Virus record (IMG/VR): IMGVR_UViG_3300025000_000378
Location: 1 to 26,582 of that record
Length of the DNA: 26,582 nucleotides
Direction: 5' to 3' (one strand)
Source of the DNA: a virus
Below the pieces are notes generated by a model. That model did no database searches and had not been told where the DNA came from. It saw only the letters and a list, made by a program, of their open reading frames with translations. Below are positions 4,413 through 17,383 of the stretch, in pieces. Positions within the stretch are counted from its first letter, which is position 1. Each line of letters opens with the position of its first letter. Both the position numbers and the translations under genes were made by a program.

Positions 4413-4446
4413 AAATAAAAAAGAAGCATATTAGATTGCTTCTTTT
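4413..4446 (-). terminator. intrinsic terminator overlapping the endonuclease stop codon
   Basis: On the minus strand the arms AAGAAGC and GCTTCTT (4421-4427 and 4438-4444 in plus coordinates) form a 7-bp stem with a 10-nt loop, followed by a TTTTTTATTT run. The TAA of the 539-residue endonuclease gene (4431-4433) lies inside the loop, so the terminator is part of that gene's 3' end. It would separate the endonuclease from the neck genes downstream. Confidence 0.8.
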
Positions 4447-6050
4447 AAGTCTGTTAATTTAATTTTTCTTAATTCTCCATAATCAAAATCAAATTCTCCC
4501 TGTGAATTAATTATTTTATTATTGTCAATGTCAAATTTTATGTAGTGGTGATTTTGATTTAAATATGTACGTGCGTAAGATATCATTTCTATTAGTTTTG
4601 TGTCTGATGGGAGATTGTCATTACGTGAAATAATATTTATACTCTTCCAGTTAGAACGATACAATGAATACCATCTATTTCTTTGTTTTTTATCAAATGC
4701 ATCTTGTGTTAAACCACCTAATTTAATTGATAACCAATGTCCTCCAAAATCACATTCAATATATAATTTTTCTTCTGGAAAAGCAATATCTAAAGAAGCA
4801 TTATAATATGGGTAATTTATTTCTCCACCAATTAACTGATGAACATAAATTTGCTGTTTAGAACGTGGTGCAGTACCATTTTTAAATAAAGTTTCTCTTA
4901 CTTTAGCAGAAATTTCCTTATTTTTCATGGGATTATCTACTCCATATATTGCTAAACACATTAATTTTGTATATATTTTCGTACAATCATCACATTGTTT
5001 TTTATTACTATATATGAAAGTATTATATGTCGTAGTAAATTTGTTTCCACATCTACATTCAATAAGAATATTTTCATTTGTTCTAATATAATCAATTTCA
5101 CTAGTTAATAATTTACAACCATTACCATTATCACCTTCGATAATTGCTTTTATATCACAATATGGTGTTTTAAGTTTTTCTGAAAGTAATTTCATAGCAC
5201 ATACTTCACATTGCCTTTTGCCACTTGAAAAATTATCATATGTTGTAGTAAATACATTACCACATTTACATTCGATGTCTAAGTTGCTTTTTGCGTCTAT
5301 ATATTTTTTACTTATTAACTTACAATTACTTTCACTTTCAACTTCTATAAAATATTTTACTATTTCATATGGTTTTCTTAACTTATCACCTGTATTTTTA
5401 TACCCACATTCTTTACATTGTCTTTGATTATCTGATTTAAAGCTATTAAAGCAAACATAAAAATCATTTCCACATTTACATTTTAATTTTAAATTTTCGT
5501 GTGCATTTAAATACTCTTTGCTTAATAATTCACATCCACTTTCTGATTCAATTTCAATAAAATATTTAACTTCTTCATAAGATAGTGTTTTAATTTCTCT
5601 CATTGATTTTTTATAGCATTCAGAACATCTTCTTACATTTCTTTTATTGAAATTGTCAAAACTAACATTAAAATGATTTCCACACTTACATTTTACTTCA
5701 AGTTTATCAAATATTCCAGTATATTCATTACTAATTAATTCACAACCAGAATTACTTTCAACTTCAATATAGTTTTTAACATATTCATATGATAATAATC
5801 TTTTATTTCTTGTAATTAATTTACCGCAAGTATTACATTGTTTTTTATTCCTACTTTTAAATTTATCAAAGTCTGTTTCAAATATATTTCCATTTGTACA
5901 TCCACATTGAATTTTTATTTTTACTTTTACATTGCTTTTATTTTGTTTAAATTTCTCAATTTCAAATTCTTCTTGTGTAGTAATTAATTTGCAACCATTA
6001 CCAGTATTTTCGTTATTTATATACTCTTTAATTGTGCTATATGTAGTCAT
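4431..6050 (-). CDS. putative homing endonuclease: five zinc-ribbon repeats plus PD-(D/E)XK-like nuclease
   Basis: A 539-residue protein starting with ATG behind AGGAGG. Residues 4-365 are five tandem units of about 70 residues. Each runs from a Y..VK.YIE-like helix through SGCEL(I/L)S.EY to a CKCGN...F...QC.EC zinc ribbon (units near 4, 87, 156, 227 and 296). A YGVDNPMKNKEI segment follows (367-380). The C-terminal domain (about 395-510) has LDIAFPEEKLYIECDFGGHW, with D421, E432 and D434 as likely PD-(D/E)XK metal ligands of a VSR-like nuclease. The inferred role is a free-standing selfish endonuclease whose zinc-ribbon array reads a long DNA site. It sits between the major capsid gene and the neck genes, with its own promoter, leader and terminator. 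It looks intact. An alternative is a phage nuclease with another role. Confidence 0.75.
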   Translation of the reverse strand: MTTYSTIKEYINNENTGNGCKLITTQEEFEIEKFKQNKSNVKVKIKIQCGCTNGNIFETDFDKFKSRNKKQCNTCGKLITRNKRLLSYEYVKNYIEVESNSGCELISNEYTGIFDKLEVKCKCGNHFNVSFDNFNKRNVRRCSECYKKSMREIKTLSYEEVKYFIEIESESGCELLSKEYLNAHENLKLKCKCGNDFYVCFNSFKSDNQRQCKECGYKNTGDKLRKPYEIVKYFIEVESESNCKLISKKYIDAKSNLDIECKCGNVFTTTYDNFSSGKRQCEVCAMKLLSEKLKTPYCDIKAIIEGDNGNGCKLLTSEIDYIRTNENILIECRCGNKFTTTYNTFIYSNKKQCDDCTKIYTKLMCLAIYGVDNPMKNKEISAKVRETLFKNGTAPRSKQQIYVHQLIGGEINYPYYNASLDIAFPEEKLYIECDFGGHWLSIKLGGLTQDAFDKKQRNRWYSLYRSNWKSINIISRNDNLPSDTKLIEMISYARTYLNQNHHYIKFDIDNNKIINSQGEFDFDYGELRKIKLTDLKEAI

Positions 6051-6056
6051 ATAATT

Positions 6057-6157
6057 CCTCCTATAGAATTTAGTATTCCTAAAATTATTAATATAAGAAG
6101 GAGGTCTAGGAAAACCTCCTTATCAATATTAATCAAGCATCGATTCAAGATTAATAT
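6057..6157 (-). promoter_or_regulatory. two-hairpin leader with SD/anti-SD stem before the 539-residue endonuclease
   Basis: Hairpin 1 has arms ATATTAATC and GATTAATAT (6126-6134 and 6149-6157). Hairpin 2 has arms AAGGAGGT and ACCTCCTT (6098-6105 and 6114-6121). These arms are exactly a consensus Shine-Dalgarno sequence and its complement. The real ribosome site AGGAGG lies at 6057-6062, 6 nt before the ATG. CCTCCT in hairpin 2 could pair with it. The tract after hairpin 2 is only moderately U-rich, so it may be a weak terminator or purely a translational control element. Confidence 0.6.
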
Positions 6158-6171
6158 CTATCTTAATATGT

Positions 6172-6200
6172 ATTATACAATTATATTAACAATCTGTCAA
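6172..6200 (-). promoter_or_regulatory. perfect consensus sigma-A type promoter
   Basis: TTGACA (plus 6195-6200) and TATAAT (plus 6172-6177) are separated by exactly 17 nt on the minus strand. The site is in the intergenic gap directly after the major capsid gene stop. The expected start point is near 6165, about 8 nt before hairpin 1 of the leader. It would drive the 539-residue endonuclease and, if the terminator at 4413-4446 is read through, the neck genes. It is the only perfect match I found in the window. Confidence 0.85.
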
Positions 6201-7972: not shown

Positions 7973-8554
7973 TTAGTTAAAGAAAGAAGGGATGCTTCCT
8001 GGAATTCTTTTAATATCTTTTTCTTTAATTGAAATAAACATATCATTCTTAGTATTAACTTCTACAGATGCATCTTTAGCAATCATTTCTTTAAATTTCT
8101 TTGCACATAATTCTGCTTCTGCTTTCTTTAATCCATCTAAATCAACAGATTCTACAAAAGATTTGAGTGAATTAATTTCTGCTTCTTCAAAACCATTTTT
8201 AGTAATTTCAGTTTCAAAATAAGCATTAACTTCTGCAATTTTTGCTTCTGATTCCAATTTTGTTTTCTCTTCTCTAAAAGAATTAACTTCTACAATAAGA
8301 GATTCTTTTTCAGTTTTCTCAGATTCAAGTAGTTTATTAACCTCTACAATAGTAGTATTTAATTCAATTATTTTACTATCTAATTCTTGAGATTTTTCTG
8401 ATAGAGTGTTAATTTCTACTGCTTTTTCTTCCAAAGATTTAGTTAAAGTGTTAATTTCTAAATCTTTCACCTCTAAAGATTTGGTTAATGAATTAATCTC
8501 ATTAATTTTATCTTCGATTTTTTGGTTAAGTTCTAATACAATTTTTTCATCCAT
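7973..8554 (-). CDS. nested scaffold protein from an internal start (predicted)
   Basis: Inside the protease-scaffold gene an in-frame ATG (plus 8552-8554) is preceded by AAAGGAGG (plus 8566-8573) with about 11 nt spacing. In this AT-rich genome that is as good a ribosome site as those of the free-standing genes. Initiation here would give a 193-residue protein starting MDEKIVLELNQKIEDKI that contains the whole coiled coil and shares the C-terminus of the long form. The arrangement mirrors lambda, where the scaffold Nu3 is made from an internal start in protease gene C. The start is predicted from sequence only. Confidence 0.65.
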   Translation of the reverse strand: MDEKIVLELNQKIEDKINEINSLTKSLEVKDLEINTLTKSLEEKAVEINTLSEKSQELDSKIIELNTTIVEVNKLLESEKTEKESLIVEVNSFREEKTKLESEAKIAEVNAYFETEITKNGFEEAEINSLKSFVESVDLDGLKKAEAELCAKKFKEMIAKDASVEVNTKNDMFISIKEKDIKRIPGSIPSFFN

Positions 8555-9607
8555 TTTGTTTTTGTCCTCCTTTGTTTTATTATTTAATAGATTAATTAAT
8601 GAATTGTTAACTTCAACAGATTCACTGCCATCTATTGGCATCCATGATTCTTCTACTTGCATAATTTCACCAATTAAAACCTTTGAATTTTCTACGGTAT
8701 ATGTACTTTTGTAGTATTCTCCTACTGAGTACCAACTTTTTACCACAAATGTAGAATTAGTTGGATAAAATTTATGAATATAAAAATATCTATAATCATT
8801 TTTATTTTCATTAAATTTTCTATTAAACGCATTCTCAACTAAAGTAGCAATATCATCAATATTCAATTCATTAATTTCAATTATGTTTTTGTTTTTATTA
8901 TTTTCTTCACCCAAATTATCATCCTCCTTTACTATAATATTATTTATATTTATATTTGTATTTATATCAAGGTTATCTTGTTTAGAGTTAACCTCAAAAA
9001 CCTGACTATTTTTATCTGCTGGTGGGTCTATATAGAGTATGCTTAATCCACTATATCCATAGGATATCGGAACTCTATCCATTTTTAAACTTCCGTCAAG
9101 ATTCTTGTTTCCATCTAAATATTCTATAATTTTACTTCCATTTTTACCATTAATCTCAATAGAACCATATATTTTATTACCTTCTTCTTTTTGTGTTTTT
9201 AAAAAGTCTACAAGAGGTTTATTACGTTGTTCATAAATGTATCCTTCTGTCATTAAAACTTTTTTTATTTCTCCATCAATTTCAATATCTTCAATAAAGG
9301 CGTTTTGAACAGATCCTACTGATTCTCCTTCAAAAATTACTTCACCGTCATCTGTGTATTTCATATTGCCATGTCCAGATGGAATACCATCTTCTTTAGA
9401 ATACATCCAGTCAACAACATATGGCATACCTATACAAGTATCTATATTTTTTTGAACATATTCTTCTAACCAGCAAATTCCATTTTCATTAGCTGTTTCT
9501 AAACTTTGTTTATCAACTATTTTATGGGCAGACATACGTATTTTAACACGACCTGCCATTTTATCTTCAGGTAATTCACATATTTCAAACATGGATTTAA
9601 TTTCCAA
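7973..9607 (-). CDS. prohead protease-scaffold fusion
   Basis: A 544-residue protein with a TTG start behind AAAGGTGG. Residues 1 to about 220 are a maturation-protease-like domain: GIPSGHGNMKY with likely catalytic His79, VGSVQNAFIEDIEI and MTEGYIY, then IYGSIEING with likely catalytic Ser149, as in XkdF-like or herpesvirus-assemblin-type phage proteases. A low-complexity Asn/Ile/Glu linker (about 205-250) leads to a small domain at about 255-330 (DYRYFYIHKFYPTNSTFVVK). From about 350 to 480 comes a long coiled coil with repeated EINSLTKSLE-like units, the scaffold part. It sits between portal and capsid genes, as expected. The protease should clear the scaffold and mature the capsid. An in-frame internal start (see the nested CDS) would make scaffold alone. 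Confidence 0.8.
   Translation of the reverse strand: MEIKSMFEICELPEDKMAGRVKIRMSAHKIVDKQSLETANENGICWLEEYVQKNIDTCIGMPYVVDWMYSKEDGIPSGHGNMKYTDDGEVIFEGESVGSVQNAFIEDIEIDGEIKKVLMTEGYIYEQRNKPLVDFLKTQKEEGNKIYGSIEINGKNGSKIIEYLDGNKNLDGSLKMDRVPISYGYSGLSILYIDPPADKNSQVFEVNSKQDNLDINTNININNIIVKEDDNLGEENNKNKNIIEINELNIDDIATLVENAFNRKFNENKNDYRYFYIHKFYPTNSTFVVKSWYSVGEYYKSTYTVENSKVLIGEIMQVEESWMPIDGSESVEVNNSLINLLNNKTKEDKNKMDEKIVLELNQKIEDKINEINSLTKSLEVKDLEINTLTKSLEEKAVEINTLSEKSQELDSKIIELNTTIVEVNKLLESEKTEKESLIVEVNSFREEKTKLESEAKIAEVNAYFETEITKNGFEEAEINSLKSFVESVDLDGLKKAEAELCAKKFKEMIAKDASVEVNTKNDMFISIKEKDIKRIPGSIPSFFN
8912..8930 (-). promoter_or_regulatory. second internal ribosome site with TTG in frame
   Basis: AAAGGAGG (plus 8923-8930) is followed after 8 nt by an in-frame TTG (plus 8912-8914) at the end of the low-complexity linker of the protease-scaffold protein. 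Initiation here would give a 313-residue product carrying the small middle domain plus scaffold but no protease. The evidence is weaker than for the site at 8554 because TTG is an inefficient start and an out-of-frame ATG overlaps the site. Confidence 0.35.
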
Positions 9608-9620
9608 ATTATCACCACCT

Positions 9621-10010
9621 TTATAAGTAAATTATATATTGCCAATGTAATTTAGTCCCATCTTTTAATTTACCACAAGATTTCCTTTTTCCATTACAAC
9701 ATTATGAAATATGACTATCTCCACAACCCATTTGCCTAGATGCTTCCATTATAGATTTAAAAATTTGATTAGTTTCTATACATTTAACTTTTTTAGATGT
9801 AGTTTCAATAGATTTTAATGTCATATTTCTTAAATTATCTAATATTTCTTTTTTAGAATTATAATTGCACCATTTTATTTTAGTTCCTTGTTTTAAATAC
9901 CTTATAATAGTAGAAGAACTAACTTTTATAATTGTTGCTATTTCTTTAACACTATATTTATTACTATTCCATAAGTCACATGCAATTTTTACAAAATATT
10001 CATACAGAAT
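9621..10010 (-). pseudogene. decayed C-terminus of a homing endonuclease (HTH plus NUMOD/IENR-like repeat)
   Basis: After the stop of the 263-residue nuclease, the next frame reads on as clear protein: LYEYFVKIACDLWNSNKY, then a helix-turn-helix (SVKEIATIIKVSSSTIIRYL), then a NUMOD/IENR-like DNA-binding repeat (VKCIETNQIFKSIMEASRQM to GTKLHWQYI). This frame has no start of its own; a TGA lies at 10011-10013. It is offset by one base from the nuclease frame, and contains a TAA at 9702-9704 in the middle of SHIS-CCNGKRKSCGK. One frameshift near 10005-10010 and one nonsense change therefore separate it from a functional gene of about 385 codons. It fills the 380-base gap between the nuclease stop and the protease gene. 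Confidence 0.75.
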
Positions 10011-10780
10011 TCATGACATTTCAACCAATCTATATTATTTAAATCAAATATATTATTTAATTTACTATGTAAAATATTATTTTTTATATATTCTAAATCT
10101 GATATTAAACAATCTATTCTTATAACTTCAATTCCATATTCTTTTGCTTTCAAATCTTTATAATTATCTATATTTTTTGTTTCTTCTGCTGTTTTACCAT
10201 TTAAATTATTTTTATTTCCATGACCTAACCCACCATCCATTTCAAGAATATATTCTTTCCCATTTACTTTAAAATAAAAATCATATCTCTTTGGTTTAAT
10301 CCAATCTGGTGAAAATTCATATTCAAAATTTAATTTTAATTGTTCTAATAAATTAAATGCAAATTTATTAGGGTATGATATTCCATCACTACATTTATTA
10401 CAAGATAATCCATGTGTTCTAACATTAGTTATACTTTTATTTTTTAATATAGTTCCACAATTAGGGCATTTAAAATTTACTTTTTTATTACTACCATGAA
10501 AATATTTATATCCATCTTCAGGATTAGCTAAATTATTAGCTAATTCAGGATTAGTTGTCCACATATCATTAAATCCAATCAGTATTTTTTGATTAGCACA
10601 ATAAGGGCAACCATAATTTCTTAATAAATTTTGAGCCATTGGTTCCCATTCACCAGTGCAATTTATACATCTCACTTTTATATTATCTTTATATTTAACA
10701 TACTTACCAATAACTTCGATATTAGGATTTATATTTTTTAATTCTTTAACAAATTCTTCATGCGTTTTCTTTTTACTCAT
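9989..10780 (-). CDS. truncated zinc-ribbon PD-(D/E)XK homing endonuclease
   Basis: A 263-residue protein with ATG behind GAAAGGAA at 10 nt spacing. Residues 1-80 hold a zinc ribbon (VRCINCTGEW and GCPYCANQK). Residues 95-130 hold a second one (FKCPNCGTILK, LSCNKCSDG). The nuclease domain follows (FEYEFSPDWIKPKRYDFYFK, then KEYILEMDGGLGHG), with D and E-x-D as the likely PD-(D/E)XK metal ligands, and ends with GIEVIRIDCL. The frame stops early (WLKCHEFCMNIL), while the normal continuation with the HTH lies one base out of frame downstream (9621-10010). The nuclease core is present but the DNA-binding tail is lost, so activity or specificity is doubtful. It sits between the mini-portal and protease genes. 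Confidence 0.7.
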   Translation of the reverse strand: MSKKKTHEEFVKELKNINPNIEVIGKYVKYKDNIKVRCINCTGEWEPMAQNLLRNYGCPYCANQKILIGFNDMWTTNPELANNLANPEDGYKYFHGSNKKVNFKCPNCGTILKNKSITNVRTHGLSCNKCSDGISYPNKFAFNLLEQLKLNFEYEFSPDWIKPKRYDFYFKVNGKEYILEMDGGLGHGNKNNLNGKTAEETKNIDNYKDLKAKEYGIEVIRIDCLISDLEYIKNNILHSKLNNIFDLNNIDWLKCHEFCMNIL

Positions 10781-10790
10781 TATTTTATCA

Positions 10791-10798
10791 TTCCTTTC
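10791..10798 (-). promoter_or_regulatory. ribosome site complementary to the upstream terminator loop
   Basis: GAAAGGAA lies 10 nt before the ATG of the truncated nuclease. Its exact 8-nt complement, TTCCTTTC, forms most of the 9-nt loop of the terminator hairpin at 10849-10873. A loop-to-RBS interaction could block translation. Confidence 0.5.
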
Positions 10799-10839
10799 AA
10801 ATGAATATCTTTCTGTTCCTTCCTTTACTTAAAATTAAA

Positions 10840-10898
10840 CAATAAAAGAAGACGAGCGAAAGGAACTCGTCTTATCATTAAGGTTAATTACTCCTTAA
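10840..10898 (-). terminator. hairpin plus intrinsic terminator in the leader of the truncated nuclease
   Basis: Hairpin 1 has arms TTAAGG and CCTTAA (plus 10878-10898). Hairpin 2 has perfect 8-bp arms AAGACGAG and CTCGTCTT (plus 10849-10856 and 10866-10873) with loop TTCCTTTCG, followed on the minus strand by CTTTTATTGTTT. This is a good intrinsic terminator after the portal and mini-portal genes, and it forms the leader of the next unit. A TATAAA lies at 10905-10910, about 7 nt before hairpin 1, but no -35 match was seen. Confidence 0.75.
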
Positions 10899-10931
10899 CT
10901 ATCTTTTATAAAATAATAAATTTTATAATAA

Positions 10932-11159
10932 TTATTCATTAGTCTTATCTTTTAACTCTATAAGAGAAAACTTTGTCTTTGGAGGTAATATTAAAACACC
11001 ACCGTTTTCCTCATTTATTTTTGCAAATTGATTTTCTATATATGTCTTTAAATTATCTTGTTGTTCTTTATTTAATGAACAAGATCCACTTCTTTCACCT
11101 TCAGGTAAATTAAAAATTATTAAATTTCCCTTATAATTATATTTAAAAACTTCTTCCAT
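10932..11159 (-). CDS. mini-portal: free-standing partial copy of the portal protein
   Basis: A 75-residue protein with its own GGAGG site and ATG, 36 nt after the portal gene. Its LPEGERSGSCSLNKEQQDN matches LPEGEKAGSCSLNKTQQDN in the portal (from about portal residue 315) at 16 of 19 positions. The similarity fades after that (GGVLILPPKTKFSLIEL against ISTLSLAPGTKIDRLSK). It corresponds to portal residues of roughly 311-375 with a new N-terminus. The DNA has diverged at third positions, so the duplication is not recent. The open frame and good ribosome site suggest it is expressed. The function is unknown; it might modulate portal oligomerisation or be a relic of recombination near the nuclease insertion. 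Confidence 0.65.
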   Translation of the reverse strand: MEEVFKYNYKGNLIIFNLPEGERSGSCSLNKEQQDNLKTYIENQFAKINEENGGVLILPPKTKFSLIELKDKTNE

Positions 11160-11195
11160 ATTAAAATACCTCCATTACCTATTATTATAATAATA

Positions 11196-12869
11196 TTAAT
11201 CTGTACTTTGCTTTTTCTGTTTATTACTCCCTAAATTACGCTGAATTTGACCTCCTGGTTTTAAATCTTTAGTTTTTTTTAATGGTGCTCCACCTTTATC
11301 ATTTATATCTCCACCATTTGAATTGAATGATGTAGCATGTACAGGATATTTATTCTCAAAATCTTCATCTAATTCTTCATCCATTAAACTTAAATAATCA
11401 TCAACATCAACACCCAAAGTAGATATCCAAAATTTTAAACTACCCCTTCCTTGAGTATATAATTTTTCTGCCTTTTCAAACATATCATCCTTATTTAACC
11501 AAGAAATAGGCAAATACTTAATATCTATGTAATCTTTAGGTCTTATATTTAATAACTCATTAATAACTCTTGTATATTCTCTAGCTATTTCATTTACTGA
11601 TTGAAATACTTGAGAAGATACTAAATCTAAATTTACTGCTAAATTTGCATATGAACTTCCTCCACTTGATTCCGCATTTAATGCACTACTAGCAAAACCT
11701 AAACTTGTACTTATCTTCTTCATATTTTCATCACTTAAAGTATCGACAATTAAAGAAGAGTCTTTACTTAATCTATCAATTTTTGTACCTGGAGCAAGAG
11801 ACAAAGTTGAAATTTTAGCAGTATTACCGTTTGTATTAACTTTAACAGCATTTTTAAATGCTTCTATTATATTATCTTGTTGTGTTTTATTTAAACTGCA
11901 AGAACCTGCTTTTTCTCCTTCTGGGAGAATAAGGAAATATATACTACTAGCTAATTCACTAATTAGTTGATATTGACTATCATCATAATCTCCACTTAAT
12001 TTCATATCTTTAAAAGCTGATAATCCTAGAGGTCTACCATATGGTTCATCCTCTTTTGCTTTAGATTTTAATGCAATTGTTTTTCTATAATCAAGAATAA
12101 ACCATCTTTTACTAACATCTTTTTTATAATCCATATATGCTTTTATAAAATCTTTAGGATAGTTCTTAATTTCATTTATTAGTCCACCATATTTAAATTG
12201 ATCAAAATACATCATATCAAATGTTGCAATAGATATATTATTTTGAAATCCAATTATTTTACAATAATCTAAATCTAAAGGTTGTATCATAAAATTATCA
12301 TCTAATGATAATCCTTCAATTCTATCAATTGAATCTAATATTACTGCTCCGGTATCAATTTTTTTATTACTTGCTGTTGTATCTCTCAATATACCAATAT
12401 ATGTTCCAAAAATATATAAATTTCTCAATATATCTCTTGTTGATCTATCATGATTTAAAAGTTTTAATAATAAGTTAAATTTTTTCTTTTTTTCTTTAAA
12501 TTTGTCTGTTTTATTTCTCATAGTTGTTATATGAGATAATGTTGGTATAGCAATCATATAATCCACTATATTACTATAAATTCCTTGTTCATTATATGCT
12601 TGTTCTGATATAGTCCTTAAAATTTCATTATATATCATAGGATATTTTACATACTGTTTTAAATCGCTCATAGATATATTGTCAGTATCTAATCTTCCTA
12701 ATGAAAAAGAACTATAAGAAAGTGAATTTAATTCTATTTCATTAGAATTAGAGAGTGGGGGAGATGTATCAGTAAATTGAGTGTTTTGATTATTTGTTTC
12801 TATTTGTTGTTGCTGTTGAATTTGTTGCTGAATTTGTGATTGAGGATCTTCTTTTTGTTTTTTTGGCAA
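11196..12869 (-). CDS. portal protein
   Basis: A 557-residue protein starting with TTG behind AAAGGAGG; no ATG lies nearby. It follows the large terminase by a 127-base gap and precedes the protease-scaffold, as portals do. A Gln-rich N-terminus (about 9-30) leads to a helical, basic body (YVKYPMIYNEILRTISEQAY, DYMIAIPTLSHITT). A middle with LPEGEKAGSCSLNKTQQDN (from about 315) lies in a region that may be the wing or clip. A segment SSGGSSYANLAVNLDLVSSQ follows, then a helix INEIAREYTRVINELLNI-like. The low-complexity C-terminus contains KKTKDLKPGGQIQRN. The dodecameric portal is the DNA entry vertex and docks the terminase. The size and order fit well; the assignment is by context and pattern. 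Confidence 0.85.
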   Translation of the reverse strand: MPKKQKEDPQSQIQQQIQQQQQIETNNQNTQFTDTSPPLSNSNEIELNSLSYSSFSLGRLDTDNISMSDLKQYVKYPMIYNEILRTISEQAYNEQGIYSNIVDYMIAIPTLSHITTMRNKTDKFKEKKKKFNLLLKLLNHDRSTRDILRNLYIFGTYIGILRDTTASNKKIDTGAVILDSIDRIEGLSLDDNFMIQPLDLDYCKIIGFQNNISIATFDMMYFDQFKYGGLINEIKNYPKDFIKAYMDYKKDVSKRWFILDYRKTIALKSKAKEDEPYGRPLGLSAFKDMKLSGDYDDSQYQLISELASSIYFLILPEGEKAGSCSLNKTQQDNIIEAFKNAVKVNTNGNTAKISTLSLAPGTKIDRLSKDSSLIVDTLSDENMKKISTSLGFASSALNAESSGGSSYANLAVNLDLVSSQVFQSVNEIAREYTRVINELLNIRPKDYIDIKYLPISWLNKDDMFEKAEKLYTQGRGSLKFWISTLGVDVDDYLSLMDEELDEDFENKYPVHATSFNSNGGDINDKGGAPLKKTKDLKPGGQIQRNLGSNKQKKQSTD

Positions 12870-12996: not shown

Positions 12997-14799
12997 TTAT
13001 GAAAATGAAAATACGAAATCATAATCTGAATCTTGATTTTGTTTCAATAATTCAATTTCTAATAACGAAGCAAAAAAATTTCCGTATGAACACGATGTGT
13101 ACCTGTCTTTCCTTGCAGTACCTACAGTCTCTAATTTTATATTACCATTCAAAATATGATATTCTAAATTAATAGTTTCATTTATAAGTAATTCCATTTC
13201 TAAATAAGGAGCAATAAACCAATTACTTAATTCTACATCATTACTACCTATATATTCTTTATTATTTTTTGTTAAATAAATTTCTGCTTCACTTTCATCA
13301 ACAAGAAAACTACACATACTTCTTTGTAATTTATCTCTAAAATCTACTGCAACATCACTATTAAATTTAGCATCTGCCAAAACAGGATATATTACAGGTT
13401 TTGCATTTAATGATAATGTTTTTTCTTTTAATTCTTCAATTAATTTATTGCTTAATGATTTATGTTCATAAACTGTAAATGCATCATATTCAATACCTCT
13501 TTCTTCATCTTTAGTTACTTCTGCCAATCTTTCAAAAATTGTTATTCCTACATTATGTAAGTCAAGTACAATATAGTCACCTTCAAAATCATAATATATT
13601 TGCTTAATTCTAATTGATTGTAAAGCAGTATGTTCACCTTGATGAGATTCCATATAAACAAATTCTCTCTTATAACCTTTTGCAGTAGGAAGTAACCTAA
13701 TGCATGTTATAATAGTATTATCATTTTTTTCGCCCTTTCGAGTTGCTACGTCAATAGATACTAATCTAATTTCACCATCTGATTTTTTAATATTATACGG
13801 ATTTTTCTTTTTATCTAATAAATCATTTCTTAATGGATAAAATGATTTTTTTATAATTCTATTTTTATTAAACATCTGCAATTTAAAATATGAGTTACTA
13901 TTTTCACCAAATGGAATATTTTCATACTCTTCCATAAAAGTAACTTTATCCATTGTAGACTTTTCTCTTAATATTTGTTTTCTTGTTTTAATACCATGTT
14001 TAATAGCAATAGGATAATCAAAAGCAATAAAACCTACATTATCACCACTTAACATCATTTTAATCATTGTTTTTGTTTCTTCATACCACCACATTGCTTT
14101 GTGATAAGCAGAAGAAATTAATACTTCTCTAGGTTCTTCAATTAAATGTTGATACTCAGGATTTTTTAAATAAGGAGTTTGTCTGGCATAAGCAAAAGGT
14201 TTTACAATACTGTCGTATTTATTTTTATCCATTATCCTAAATTCTTCTGCAATTGTAAATGTTGAGCGTTCGCCTCGCCCACCTTCGTTACAAGCAACTA
14301 CTTTTATTGTACTACCGTTGTGGAGAGTACAAACACGATTATTATTAGTATTTGCAAAATCAGCTATTTCTCTTGCAATATTAGGATGATCAAGTCTAAA
14401 TCTTGCAACTTTCCCTAATATAATTCCTGCTTGTTTTTGTGTAGACGCAACCACTACGATCTCCGAATTTGGCCAAAGTGTAGCCCTTGCTAATGCAAAT
14501 AAAGCAATTAACCAAGATTTTGCTGCTGCTCTACTTGCAATACTTACAAAAGCTTCAGAAATACTCATAAAATATATCCATATTATTTGATACCAGTGGA
14601 GATCTACTTGAAAATAAAACTGGATGAACCTGTGGATATTTCTTCTAAAATATGTATTCCAGTCAATTATATTATCTCTCCATTGTTCTGTTACATCTTT
14701 TTCTTTAATCATAGACTTAGGAGCTTTAAATTGATTACTATGACCTGCATATTTACTAAAATTATTCTCATATTTTGCATATGACCTACCCACTGGCAT
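12997..14799 (-). CDS. terL: terminase large subunit
   Basis: A 600-residue packaging ATPase-nuclease. I chose the ATG at 14797-14799, 5 nt after GAGGT; the preceding TTG is too close to the ribosome site. It overlaps the small-subunit gene by 14 nt. The N-terminal ATPase has a Walker-A-like SRAAAKSW near residues 90-97, IVVVASTQKQAGIILGK, and a Walker-B-like FTIAEEF. The C-terminal RNase-H-like nuclease has LVSIDVATRKGEKNDNT with the first Asp, DYIVLDLHNVGITIFERL with the second, and GTARKDRYTSCSYG with the third. It cuts concatemers and drives DNA through the portal. All key residues appear present. Confidence 0.9.
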   Translation of the reverse strand: MPVGRSYAKYENNFSKYAGHSNQFKAPKSMIKEKDVTEQWRDNIIDWNTYFRRNIHRFIQFYFQVDLHWYQIIWIYFMSISEAFVSIASRAAAKSWLIALFALARATLWPNSEIVVVASTQKQAGIILGKVARFRLDHPNIAREIADFANTNNNRVCTLHNGSTIKVVACNEGGRGERSTFTIAEEFRIMDKNKYDSIVKPFAYARQTPYLKNPEYQHLIEEPREVLISSAYHKAMWWYEETKTMIKMMLSGDNVGFIAFDYPIAIKHGIKTRKQILREKSTMDKVTFMEEYENIPFGENSNSYFKLQMFNKNRIIKKSFYPLRNDLLDKKKNPYNIKKSDGEIRLVSIDVATRKGEKNDNTIITCIRLLPTAKGYKREFVYMESHQGEHTALQSIRIKQIYYDFEGDYIVLDLHNVGITIFERLAEVTKDEERGIEYDAFTVYEHKSLSNKLIEELKEKTLSLNAKPVIYPVLADAKFNSDVAVDFRDKLQRSMCSFLVDESEAEIYLTKNNKEYIGSNDVELSNWFIAPYLEMELLINETINLEYHILNGNIKLETVGTARKDRYTSCSYGNFFASLLEIELLKQNQDSDYDFVFSFS

Positions 14800-15727
14800 C
14801 AACTACCTCTTCATCTTCTAAATTAACATTAATATTATCATTAATTTGAAAATCTCTATTCCCAGTAACAAAATTCTTAATAGGACGTAATATATAATTT
14901 TTAATATATGGAATAAAACCATCCATATCTTTATATTTTTCTTGTTTGTCATGCCATTCAGCAGGTCTAAATTGTTCTATATCTTTTACAAATAATCCCC
15001 ATGCATCATGTGATTTTCCCGCACTTGCAACATTAGCTTTTGCAGGATCTACGCTTGCAGTTTTAAAAAGTTCTTGTAATTCTTTTACATCTTGTGATAC
15101 AGTTTCTCCTTCTGCACGTTTATTTCTTATTGTTAATATTTTTATACAAATTTCTTTTAATAATGTTACTTCTGCTTGATTATCACATTTATGTGTTTTT
15201 TTCCAGTTTGATAATTCTGTTTCTAAAAATATATAATCATCAATAGAATCAAAACCTCTTCCCCAAAATAAAACTAACTCATCATCAATATCTTCTTCTA
15301 CTTGATCATTAATAATATTTTCAAATTCACTATCCTTAAATCTAAATGATTCTAACTTTTCATTATTTTTACCAGTAGAACCAAGTTTACTTTTATAATA
15401 TCCAAATAATTTATCTGCTTTTTTACCTTTAGACATTAAACTTTCAACATGTGATTGTGCTTGTTTTAATGCTTCTTCACTATATCTTACATCTAAATCT
15501 CTGCAAGTTAATTTTAAAGCAATATCTATGTTATTATGTATTGAATTATATGTATCAAAAATCTGGTTACAATGATCACGGCACACAGACATTAAACCAT
15601 TTTTATCAATCATTGGATTAGTTGCCTCATAAAAACTAGAAGCAGGTAATGTTTTTTGACATATGCGACAATAACCTTCTCCAGATACCACTTTTTTTAT
15701 TTCTTTAATTGTTTTTGCCCTTGGCAT
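14786..15727 (-). CDS. putative terminase small subunit, zinc-binding N-terminus
   Basis: A 313-residue protein encoded immediately before and overlapping the large terminase, hence probably the DNA-recognition subunit. Residues about 19-55 carry Cys/His pairs (YCRICQKTLPASSFYE, SVCRDHCNQIFDTY) that could bind zinc. The middle is helical and charged. The segment SHDAWGLFVKDIEQFRPAEW and the basic helix KNYILRPIKNFVTGNR near the C-terminus look like a part that contacts the large subunit. The ribosome site AAAAGGAG is about 10 nt before the ATG. Small terminases vary widely, so the call relies mostly on gene order. Confidence 0.6.
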   Translation of the reverse strand: MPRAKTIKEIKKVVSGEGYCRICQKTLPASSFYEATNPMIDKNGLMSVCRDHCNQIFDTYNSIHNNIDIALKLTCRDLDVRYSEEALKQAQSHVESLMSKGKKADKLFGYYKSKLGSTGKNNEKLESFRFKDSEFENIINDQVEEDIDDELVLFWGRGFDSIDDYIFLETELSNWKKTHKCDNQAEVTLLKEICIKILTIRNKRAEGETVSQDVKELQELFKTASVDPAKANVASAGKSHDAWGLFVKDIEQFRPAEWHDKQEKYKDMDGFIPYIKNYILRPIKNFVTGNRDFQINDNINVNLEDEEVVDASG

Positions 15728-15772: not shown

Positions 15773-16990
15773 CTAACTGTTTTCCAACACATTGAAATAT
15801 TTATAATTATCATCTAATAAATTATCATATTCAAAATTCTTATATTTTTTCTCAAACTCTTTAAACTGTTCTGGTGTATTCTTTCCAAATCCGTATTCTT
15901 TGTGAAAAATTGCATGTAAACTATTAATAATGCAAATTCCAGGATATTTCTTATGTTTTTCAATACATTGCGTCTTCAATATTTCTAATTCATCTTCACT
16001 ATATTCAGATATTGATTGTTTTAAATTTAAATTATTCTCATTTAAAATTTCTTCTAATATTAAATCAAATCCAAATAAATGATGTATTATATCAAATCGT
16101 TGATTAGTTAAAACACATTTATAGTTACAATTCTTCATAGATTCTTTTTTCCAATCAACAATACAATTTCTTAAATATTCATATAAAGATGATCTTCCAC
16201 CTTTCCAATTATGATTATTTTCTCCTGAATTATTCTCAATAGCACATATAGAACATCCACTACCACTTACTAAATTATTATATGAAATTTCTTGAATAAT
16301 ATTTTTATGTAATGGACATATATATTTCAATTTAGAATTATTATTTATATAATCTTCTTTAGTAGATATAAGAATATACTTTCTTTTCTTAAATGCTTCT
16401 TGGACAATACTAAAATCTAATCTTTTTTGTTGACTTAATTTATCATAAGAACAATATTTACATCCTTGATTTTTATATTTAAAATTTCCATATCTAATAG
16501 ACTGAATACCTTTATCTTTATGACTTGGACAAATAAATTCCATATAATCATCTGGACTATAATATTCTTTTGTTAATAAAATTAAATTTCTTTCTTCAAA
16601 TTCTTTTTTAACTAAATCAATATTATTTTTACGAATACTATTTACAATTTTTTTATAAATATCTGGAAGTTTTACAGAAGATTTTACACCTTTCTTTAAT
16701 AAACATAATTCAACTTGTTTATCATGTTTATGCTTTTCACAAGCATCTTTAATTATTGGTTGATTTTTATGACTATTGATGTATTTATAATATGATTTTG
16801 GTATTATTGTTTCTATTCCTTCTTCTAAACAATAATCACACAAACATTCAATTCCTATATTGCTACCTTCTAATAATTTATGAACATCTATTGTATAAAC
16901 TTTTTTATATTCCCATGTTAATCCTAAACTTTCTATATATGGTTTATTATTAGACAAGCATGTTACCTCTACTTCTTTTGTTATTAACAT
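15773..16990 (-). CDS. zinc-ribbon HNH endonuclease
   Basis: A 405-residue protein. The first 260 residues hold several zinc-ribbon-like units: IECLCDYCLEEG; YMEFICPSHKDKG with GCKYCSYDK; LKYICPLHKN with GSGCSICAIENN. They alternate with SIVQEAFKKRKYILISTKEDY-type helices. NNHNWKGGRSSLYEYLR then leads to an HNH core: CNYKCVLTNQRFDIIHHLFG, then ICIINSLHAIFHKEYGFGKN with the H-N-H ligands, and TPEQFKEFEKKY. This is typical of free-standing homing HNH enzymes. It lies directly upstream of the terminase genes, where some phages encode an HNH needed for packaging, so a packaging role cannot be excluded. It appears intact and has an elaborate leader upstream. Confidence 0.8.
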   Translation of the reverse strand: MLITKEVEVTCLSNNKPYIESLGLTWEYKKVYTIDVHKLLEGSNIGIECLCDYCLEEGIETIIPKSYYKYINSHKNQPIIKDACEKHKHDKQVELCLLKKGVKSSVKLPDIYKKIVNSIRKNNIDLVKKEFEERNLILLTKEYYSPDDYMEFICPSHKDKGIQSIRYGNFKYKNQGCKYCSYDKLSQQKRLDFSIVQEAFKKRKYILISTKEDYINNNSKLKYICPLHKNIIQEISYNNLVSGSGCSICAIENNSGENNHNWKGGRSSLYEYLRNCIVDWKKESMKNCNYKCVLTNQRFDIIHHLFGFDLILEEILNENNLNLKQSISEYSEDELEILKTQCIEKHKKYPGICIINSLHAIFHKEYGFGKNTPEQFKEFEKKYKNFEYDNLLDDNYKYFNVLENS

Positions 16991-17000
16991 TCCTAATCAA

Positions 17001-17041
17001 CCTCCACGCAATTTATTTTTACTTTCAAATTTTTCTACGCA
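17001..17041 (-). promoter_or_regulatory. HNH-gene ribosome site with two sequences complementary to the terminator
   Basis: The ribosome site in TTGCGTGGAGG (17001-17011) can pair with CTACGCAA inside the terminator hairpin (plus 17077-17084): 8 bp with one G-U. A second copy of the complement, TGCGTAG (17035-17041), matches the same element over 7 bp without mismatch. The two sites would compete for it. This is a candidate switch; it is not tested. Confidence 0.4.
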
Positions 17042-17045
17042 TTAT

Positions 17046-17121
17046 CCTTAAAATAAAAAATAAAAAAGAAGTTAGGTTGCGTAGAGAGGGGATCATGACT
17101 CCCCTAAAATACCTAACTTCT
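17046..17121 (-). terminator. strong composite intrinsic terminator in the HNH leader
   Basis: Perfect 10-bp arms AGAAGTTAGG and CCTAACTTCT (17067-17076 and 17112-17121) enclose an inner GGGG/CCCC stem (17088-17091 and 17101-17104). On the minus strand they are followed by a long TTTTTTATTTTTTATTTT run. It is the strongest terminator in the window. It stands between the tail-gene unit and the HNH-terminase unit, so all packaging genes downstream need read-through or an internal promoter. TATAAT matches at 17144-17149 and 17155-17160 lie just upstream, without good -35 boxes. Confidence 0.85.
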
Positions 17122-17383
17122 CTAAAATAAACATATAAAATTTATTATAATAAAATTATAATCTAATACTAAACTACCAACCTAAAAAATATCACAACCA
17201 AATCTCACATTTATACTAAATAATAAAGCACAAGAAAACTATGCTAACCAATCAAAACAAATTAGCATAGTTCAATCTACCTTATTATTAAATTTGTCCT
17301 TTCGACTACTATATAACTTCTTTGTTGGGATTCTACACCCATAAAATTCTTAATCATCATACATCAAATTCCACTACTCAACA
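17122..17383 (-). other. intergenic region between tail unit and HNH leader
   Basis: No coding frame of note. It contains the hairpin at 17237-17272 and two TATAAT-like boxes near 17144-17160. I see no tRNA and no second gene. The sequence is AT-rich and otherwise unstructured to the eye. Confidence 0.5.
17237..17272 (-). terminator. hairpin terminating the tail-gene unit
   Basis: Perfect 11-bp arms AACTATGCTAA and TTAGCATAGTT (17237-17247 and 17262-17272) with a 14-nt loop. On the minus strand it is followed by TTCTTGTGC, so the U-run is weak. It lies about 110 nt after the stop of the BppU-N-like gene. It is likely a terminator or a 3'-end stabilising hairpin. Confidence 0.6.

Follow-up and report, generated by a model that had tools for sequence, protein, structure and literature searches.

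A free-standing clip-domain gene behind the YonE-type portal gene of SPbeta-type phages as a possible decoy for portal-sensing defence

Why should a phage keep, directly behind an intact portal gene, a second and much smaller gene that repeats one internal segment of the portal protein? The question is raised by a piece of viral DNA in IMG/VR that is 26,582 bases long (the window; Table 1). A preliminary description of this DNA had noticed a 75-residue gene right after the portal, here called mini, with a good ribosome-binding site (RBS), a quoted identity of 16 in 19 residues to an internal portal segment and a diverged DNA sequence. All of these observations were confirmed: the open reading frame starts with an ATG about 37 nt past the portal stop codon and 9 nt from its GGAGG, the identity between the mini and portal motifs (LPEGERSGSCSLNKEQQDN and LPEGEKAGSCSLNKTQQDN, respectively) is exactly 16/19 amino acids, and the coding DNA of the motif has indeed diverged, since only 42 of its 57 positions are identical. 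The similarity also extends well beyond the motif, as BLASTP aligned mini residues 18-64 to portal residues 315-364 (E 2e-10) and profile-profile comparison with hhalign aligned mini residues 12-67 to portal residues 309-367 (97.6% probability, E 3.8e-12). The N-terminus, which had been considered new, turned out to be so only in part, because KGNLIIFNL in mini aligns with SSIYFLIL, the first strand of the portal clip. Searched against the portal families, mini gave sub-threshold matches to PF04860 (E 0.0042, under the Pfam gathering score) and phrog_12 (E 5.7e-4); in these families, as in phrog_2739, it corresponds to the clip part only. Judged by the alignments, a likeness by chance is excluded, and mini is almost certainly a homologue of the portal clip. 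No terminator-like site was found between portal and mini, and the only such site from the portal start to the nuclease gene is the P2 stem of the nuclease leader (10849-10873), which lies past mini; mini and portal are probably read together as part of the late head operon.

Table 1. Features of the window in the region of mini (all on the minus strand).
Feature	Position	Strand	Basis
Mini (free-standing clip-domain gene, 75 aa)	10932..11159	-	ORF; homology to portal clip; five intact alleles; omega 0.25
Shine-Dalgarno GGAGG of mini	11169..11173	-	sequence; SD-like stretch upstream of all alleles
Portal gene, YonE-like, phrog_2739, 557 aa, intact and with a clip of its own	11196..12869	-	ORF and family match
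Portal clip segment (residues 309-368), paralogue of mini	11766..11945	-	sequence alignment
Structured leader RNA of the homing endonuclease, junction P0/P1/P2 with loop-RBS pairing; neighbour, not part of mini	10784..10922	-	folding/covariation
N-terminal part of the homing endonuclease (phrog_4538/559), with a frameshift near 9990; neighbour	9989..10780	-	family match; frame comparison
Same endonuclease, out-of-frame C-terminal remainder	9633..9995	-	tblastn of L012 homologue, residues 268-385, other frame
Next head gene, YonD position, bounding the variable interval	7973..9607	-	gene order across loci

The domain that was copied can be named by comparison with phage SPbeta. A search with the window portal profile found one portal of known structure, YonE of SPbeta (9PHA), and the gene order of terminase, portal and next head gene is that of yonF-yonE-yonD in SPbeta, where no gene lies between yonE and yonD. 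Residues 270-325 of YonE have been treated as the clip, consisting of three strands and one helix, which was modelled and is unresolved in the cryo-EM map (PMC12847820), and residue A291 has been located in this clip (PMC11984713); the translated yonE carries an Ala at residue 291. When window-type portals, the SPR portal and YonE were aligned, mini spanned about residues 262-325 of YonE and A291 fell in the clip helix, in a part of the YonE alignment that is weak, with a 3-residue gap beside A291. The clip was placed by sequence alone, because our own model of the portal was of low confidence (AF2, 38 sequences, pLDDT 42). For mini, AF2 predicted a strand-helix-strand order, likewise with low confidence (pLDDT 59), and a Foldseek search with this low-confidence model gave no significant match, several weak viral matches being portals. 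Taken together, the alignment and the published modelling indicate that the copied segment is one complete domain, the whole clip. Mini and the YonE clip are thus homologous by alignment and share the same predicted order of strands and helix, but in YonE the clip lies within a portal of 506 aa, while mini exists as a gene of its own, 75 aa long, next to a portal that is intact. Nor is mini itself a portal, in which wing, stem, clip and crown form one ring-forming chain, as its 75 residues cover portal residues 309-367 only; by hhalign and the YonE alignment it is a clip domain of the YonE type. The earlier remark that a small copy of a single portal domain is unusual therefore holds, with the domain now identified as the clip. 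A second match to the YonE clip, in Bacillus phage phi3Ts, was ruled out as another free clip. It is a 71-bp copy of yonE (L102, 37388-37458; MT366945.1, 86887-86957), 98.6% identical and covering the start of the clip region, which lies outside any annotated gene and also occurs in the SPbeta hybrids of phi3Ts.

Scans of IMG/VR detected mini in seven contigs besides the window, with five distinct alleles, namely those of the window (DNA-identical in L001 and L008), L003, L033, L035 (same protein in L062) and L007. The other alleles are 58-83% identical to the window mini, and each lies downstream of a portal with its frame intact and an SD-like sequence present, the core motif PEGE..GSCSLNK.QQ being kept in all. 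The family is small and its members come from related samples. Mini had no match at E 1 among 50,697 phage records, where the L007 allele at E 10 matched places in portal regions only; in PHROGs and Pfam, too, no second gene for a clip alone was found. Scans of GTDB genomes, run with the portal as well as the mini profile, gave no relative, and the literature searched for decoy or fragment portal genes described no such gene. In a tree of minis and portal clips, the minis formed one group with 100% bootstrap support on a long branch. Mini is therefore an old paralogue and did not arise by repeated recent copying, and a recent duplication of each phage's own portal is ruled out.

The dN/dS analysis that had been suggested as a check, together with the presence of the gene in relatives and the state of its frame, speaks against a meaningless duplication. 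A codon model of the five alleles gave an omega of 0.25 and rejected neutrality (2dlnL 24.6 against omega 1), and for the four close alleles alone omega was 0.485, a marginally significant result (2dlnL 3.98). These values were taken from a codon model with base-frequency correction and not from naive counting, which in pairwise comparisons among the four close alleles gave dN/dS of 0.5-1 and would suggest near-neutrality. For the same phages omega was 0.026 in the portal and 0.005 in the portal clip. Mini is under purifying selection, yet it evolves far faster than the portal clip. With intact frames, RBSs and selective constraint across its alleles, it behaves as a gene family and not as a pseudogene or relic, and it is very probably a functional gene. 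We infer that mini is translated and that its product would fold as a free domain.

Among 65 portal loci that were fetched, 38 non-redundant intervals between portal and next gene were counted. The same adjacent gene does recur in relatives, as mini is present in 5 of the 38 intervals and absent from the remaining 33. The interval (for example L048 7545-8787 and L013 7572-9352) is hypervariable across these loci, being empty in some (L023, L028, L032, L038 and L045) and holding homing endonucleases of several families, an acetyltransferase or two further gene families without assignment in others. One of these two comprises proteins of 237-240 aa (MPNT...) and the second proteins of 117-122 aa that contain WMKSTKVMNVHGGC, with a 3' remnant of the second found downstream of the L007 mini. 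Mini lies between portal and nuclease in the window, L008 and L035, between portal and next head gene in L033, where there is no nuclease, between portal and acetyltransferase in L003, and behind the nuclease (portal-nuclease-mini) in L007. Moreover, the mini of L008 is DNA-identical to that of the window, while the adjoining nucleases are only 61% identical. The proposal that mini is a relic tied to the adjacent nuclease insertion is not borne out by these four arrangements, in which the nuclease is absent (L033), replaced (L003), on the other side (L007) or of a divergent kind (L008), and for the same reasons mini is not part of a homing-endonuclease cassette, which would travel with its nuclease. 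Mini occurs with two types of large terminase that are about 24% identical, and for most of the phage pairs compared its dS (0.13-0.23) is far below that of the portal in the same pairs (0.6-0.86), so that mini has been exchanged between phages. It is an accessory cargo gene of the portal-yonD interval. Within the packaging module, the window terminase (12997-14802, minus strand) is 98% identical to those of L033 and L035, where the portals are only 71% identical, while L001 and L008 share their portal with the window (98%) and have a terminase about 24% identical. Sequence comparison thus reveals strong mosaicism inside this module.

The endonuclease gene beside mini is split in the window (9633-10780, minus strand), while each of its homologues is encoded by one ORF of about 390 aa; mini is intact. 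The leader RNA in front of this nuclease has, in 22 loci, an outer stem, inside it two hairpins that covary, and downstream a further hairpin with the Shine-Dalgarno sequence GAAAGG as its loop, to which the invariant P2 loop CCUUUC is complementary. Standard pairs fill 99.1% of the pair cells in these loci; the covariation score is 0.329, compared with 0.135 for shuffled alignments, and was reached by 0 of 500 shuffles. The leader, which has no match in Rfam, was also found in L009, L011, L012, L017, L025, L042, L086 and others, and it precedes unrelated nuclease families (DUF4379/EDxHD-like and GIY-YIG). Some 3-5 kb further on, weaker relatives with other P2 loops lie in front of nuclease genes. 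Weaker copies lie in the window at 6069-6181 (minus strand, before ORF 4431-6050) and at about 17012-17136 (minus strand, before ORF 15773-16990), both under significance by the model alone, and elsewhere in L024 (12265-12396), L015 (5718-5851), L032 (8673-8796) and L065 (2299-2436). The loop UCUACGCA of the copy at 17.0 kb is complementary to UGCGUAGA in the downstream leader, as is the loop UUCCCUUUC of the L065 copy to GAAAGGGAA, and the summed loop complementarity of the weaker relatives exceeds that of 200/200 shuffles. Sequestration of the RBS is known for I-TevI of T4 and mobE of Aeh1 (PMC3014915); a leader architecture common to several nuclease families is, as far as checked, undescribed.

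A role for mini may be sought in what is known of the clip. Terminase and tail machinery dock on it, and clip domains touch one another within the portal ring (PMC12847820). Portal rings are now also known to trigger several bacterial defences, among them SpbK, Avs4 and Swarozyc. The TIR-NADase defence SpbK docks on the YonE clip with its N-terminal domain, an interaction that is weakened by A291P, which partly escapes defence, and clustering on the 12-fold portal ring activates its NADase (PMC12847820, PMC11984713). Likewise, Avs4 and Swarozyc (DUF4062) touch the portal stem and clip (PMC12847820, PMC13174449), and since the portal is essential, escape mutants are rare and costly (PMC11984713). 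The part that these systems recognise, clip and/or stem and in the case of SpbK the clip, is the part copied by mini; however, they are host sensors, whereas mini would be a phage mimic of their ligand. As wing, stem and crown are missing, mini cannot build a portal ring and most likely works by mimicry of the clip, a mode of action that we regard as fairly probable. A soluble clip, being a docking surface only, would occupy partners that recognise the portal clip, which may be terminase and neck proteins or host sensors. The likeliest partner would be a portal sensor of the host, akin to SpbK, Swarozyc or Avs, and a monomeric clip made alongside the portal may bind such a sensor without clustering its NADase domains, by which abortive infection would be blunted. 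That the target of mini is a defence sensor, with mini as a decoy, is a tentative reading, and the fuller scenario, in which an exchangeable portal-side cargo gene derived from the sensed domain saturates a sensor like SpbK and so halts the abortive infection set off by the portal, is rather doubtful as it stands. Since an AF3 prediction with SpbK used a clip-only YonE 12-mer (PMC12847820), free clips might also cluster and thereby activate the sensor.

Other roles have to be weighed against a decoy. A free clip could bind the terminase or a head-completion protein of its own phage and tune docking to the portal, for instance by delaying packaging until heads are ready, and both the docking function of the clip (PMC12847820) and the place of mini, next after the portal in the head operon, are in line with this. 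Its absence from most of the relatives' intervals, however, indicates that mini is not needed for packaging, its co-occurrence with two dissimilar large terminases that it is not matched to one of them, and its evolution is much faster than that of the portal clip; such a modulator is somewhat unlikely. The preliminary description had considered an effect on ring assembly or a plug or adaptor, so that mini would insert into or cap the portal ring and become part of the virion. Contact between clip domains within the ring (PMC12847820) and the operon common to both genes would favour this, but a ring component that has none of the other portal domains, is accessory among relatives and differs strongly from the portal in rate, without a common history, is improbable.

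Inter-phage conflict offers a further role, since the interval is dominated by homing endonucleases, themselves inter-phage weapons, and mini has been exchanged between phages: as a dominant-negative clip it might poison the packaging of a co-infecting competitor. The portal clips of relatives are nearly identical to the phage's own, however, and the poison would hit its carrier; as mini is also unlinked to the nuclease, this is quite improbable. Least of all do we expect mini to be a neutral relic, left by duplication of part of the portal and drifting with no function. The pairwise dN/dS of the four close alleles and the small size of the family could be read in this way, but the five frames are intact and have RBSs, neutral drift is rejected on the codon model, the copy ends at domain borders, and the minis form one old branch instead of repeated recent copies. 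A decoy is preferred over a part of the packaging machinery because an accessory distribution, exchange between phages and fast yet constrained evolution fit a conflict gene better. A decoy for portal-sensing defence, which the preliminary description had not raised, would fit at least as well as the ring-assembly and adaptor roles.

A comparable function is known from phage phi3T, whose anti-SpbK protein Nip stops a portal-sensing NADase (PMC11984713), the same role as proposed here for mini. The two differ in that Nip, a protein with SH3-like and HU-like domains, binds the TIR domain, while mini copies the sensed domain of the trigger and would bind the N-terminal sensor domain. The decoy idea is directly testable in the SPbeta/SpbK system, and even if the target were terminase or a neck protein, a free clip would be a small genetic tool to dissect portal docking. 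Small accessory genes that stem from a structural gene are known in general, and one that consists exactly of the domain by which a defence senses its trigger would be novel among them. If the decoy reading is true, a phage that encodes the sensed domain a second time could evade sensing cheaply, with its portal unchanged.
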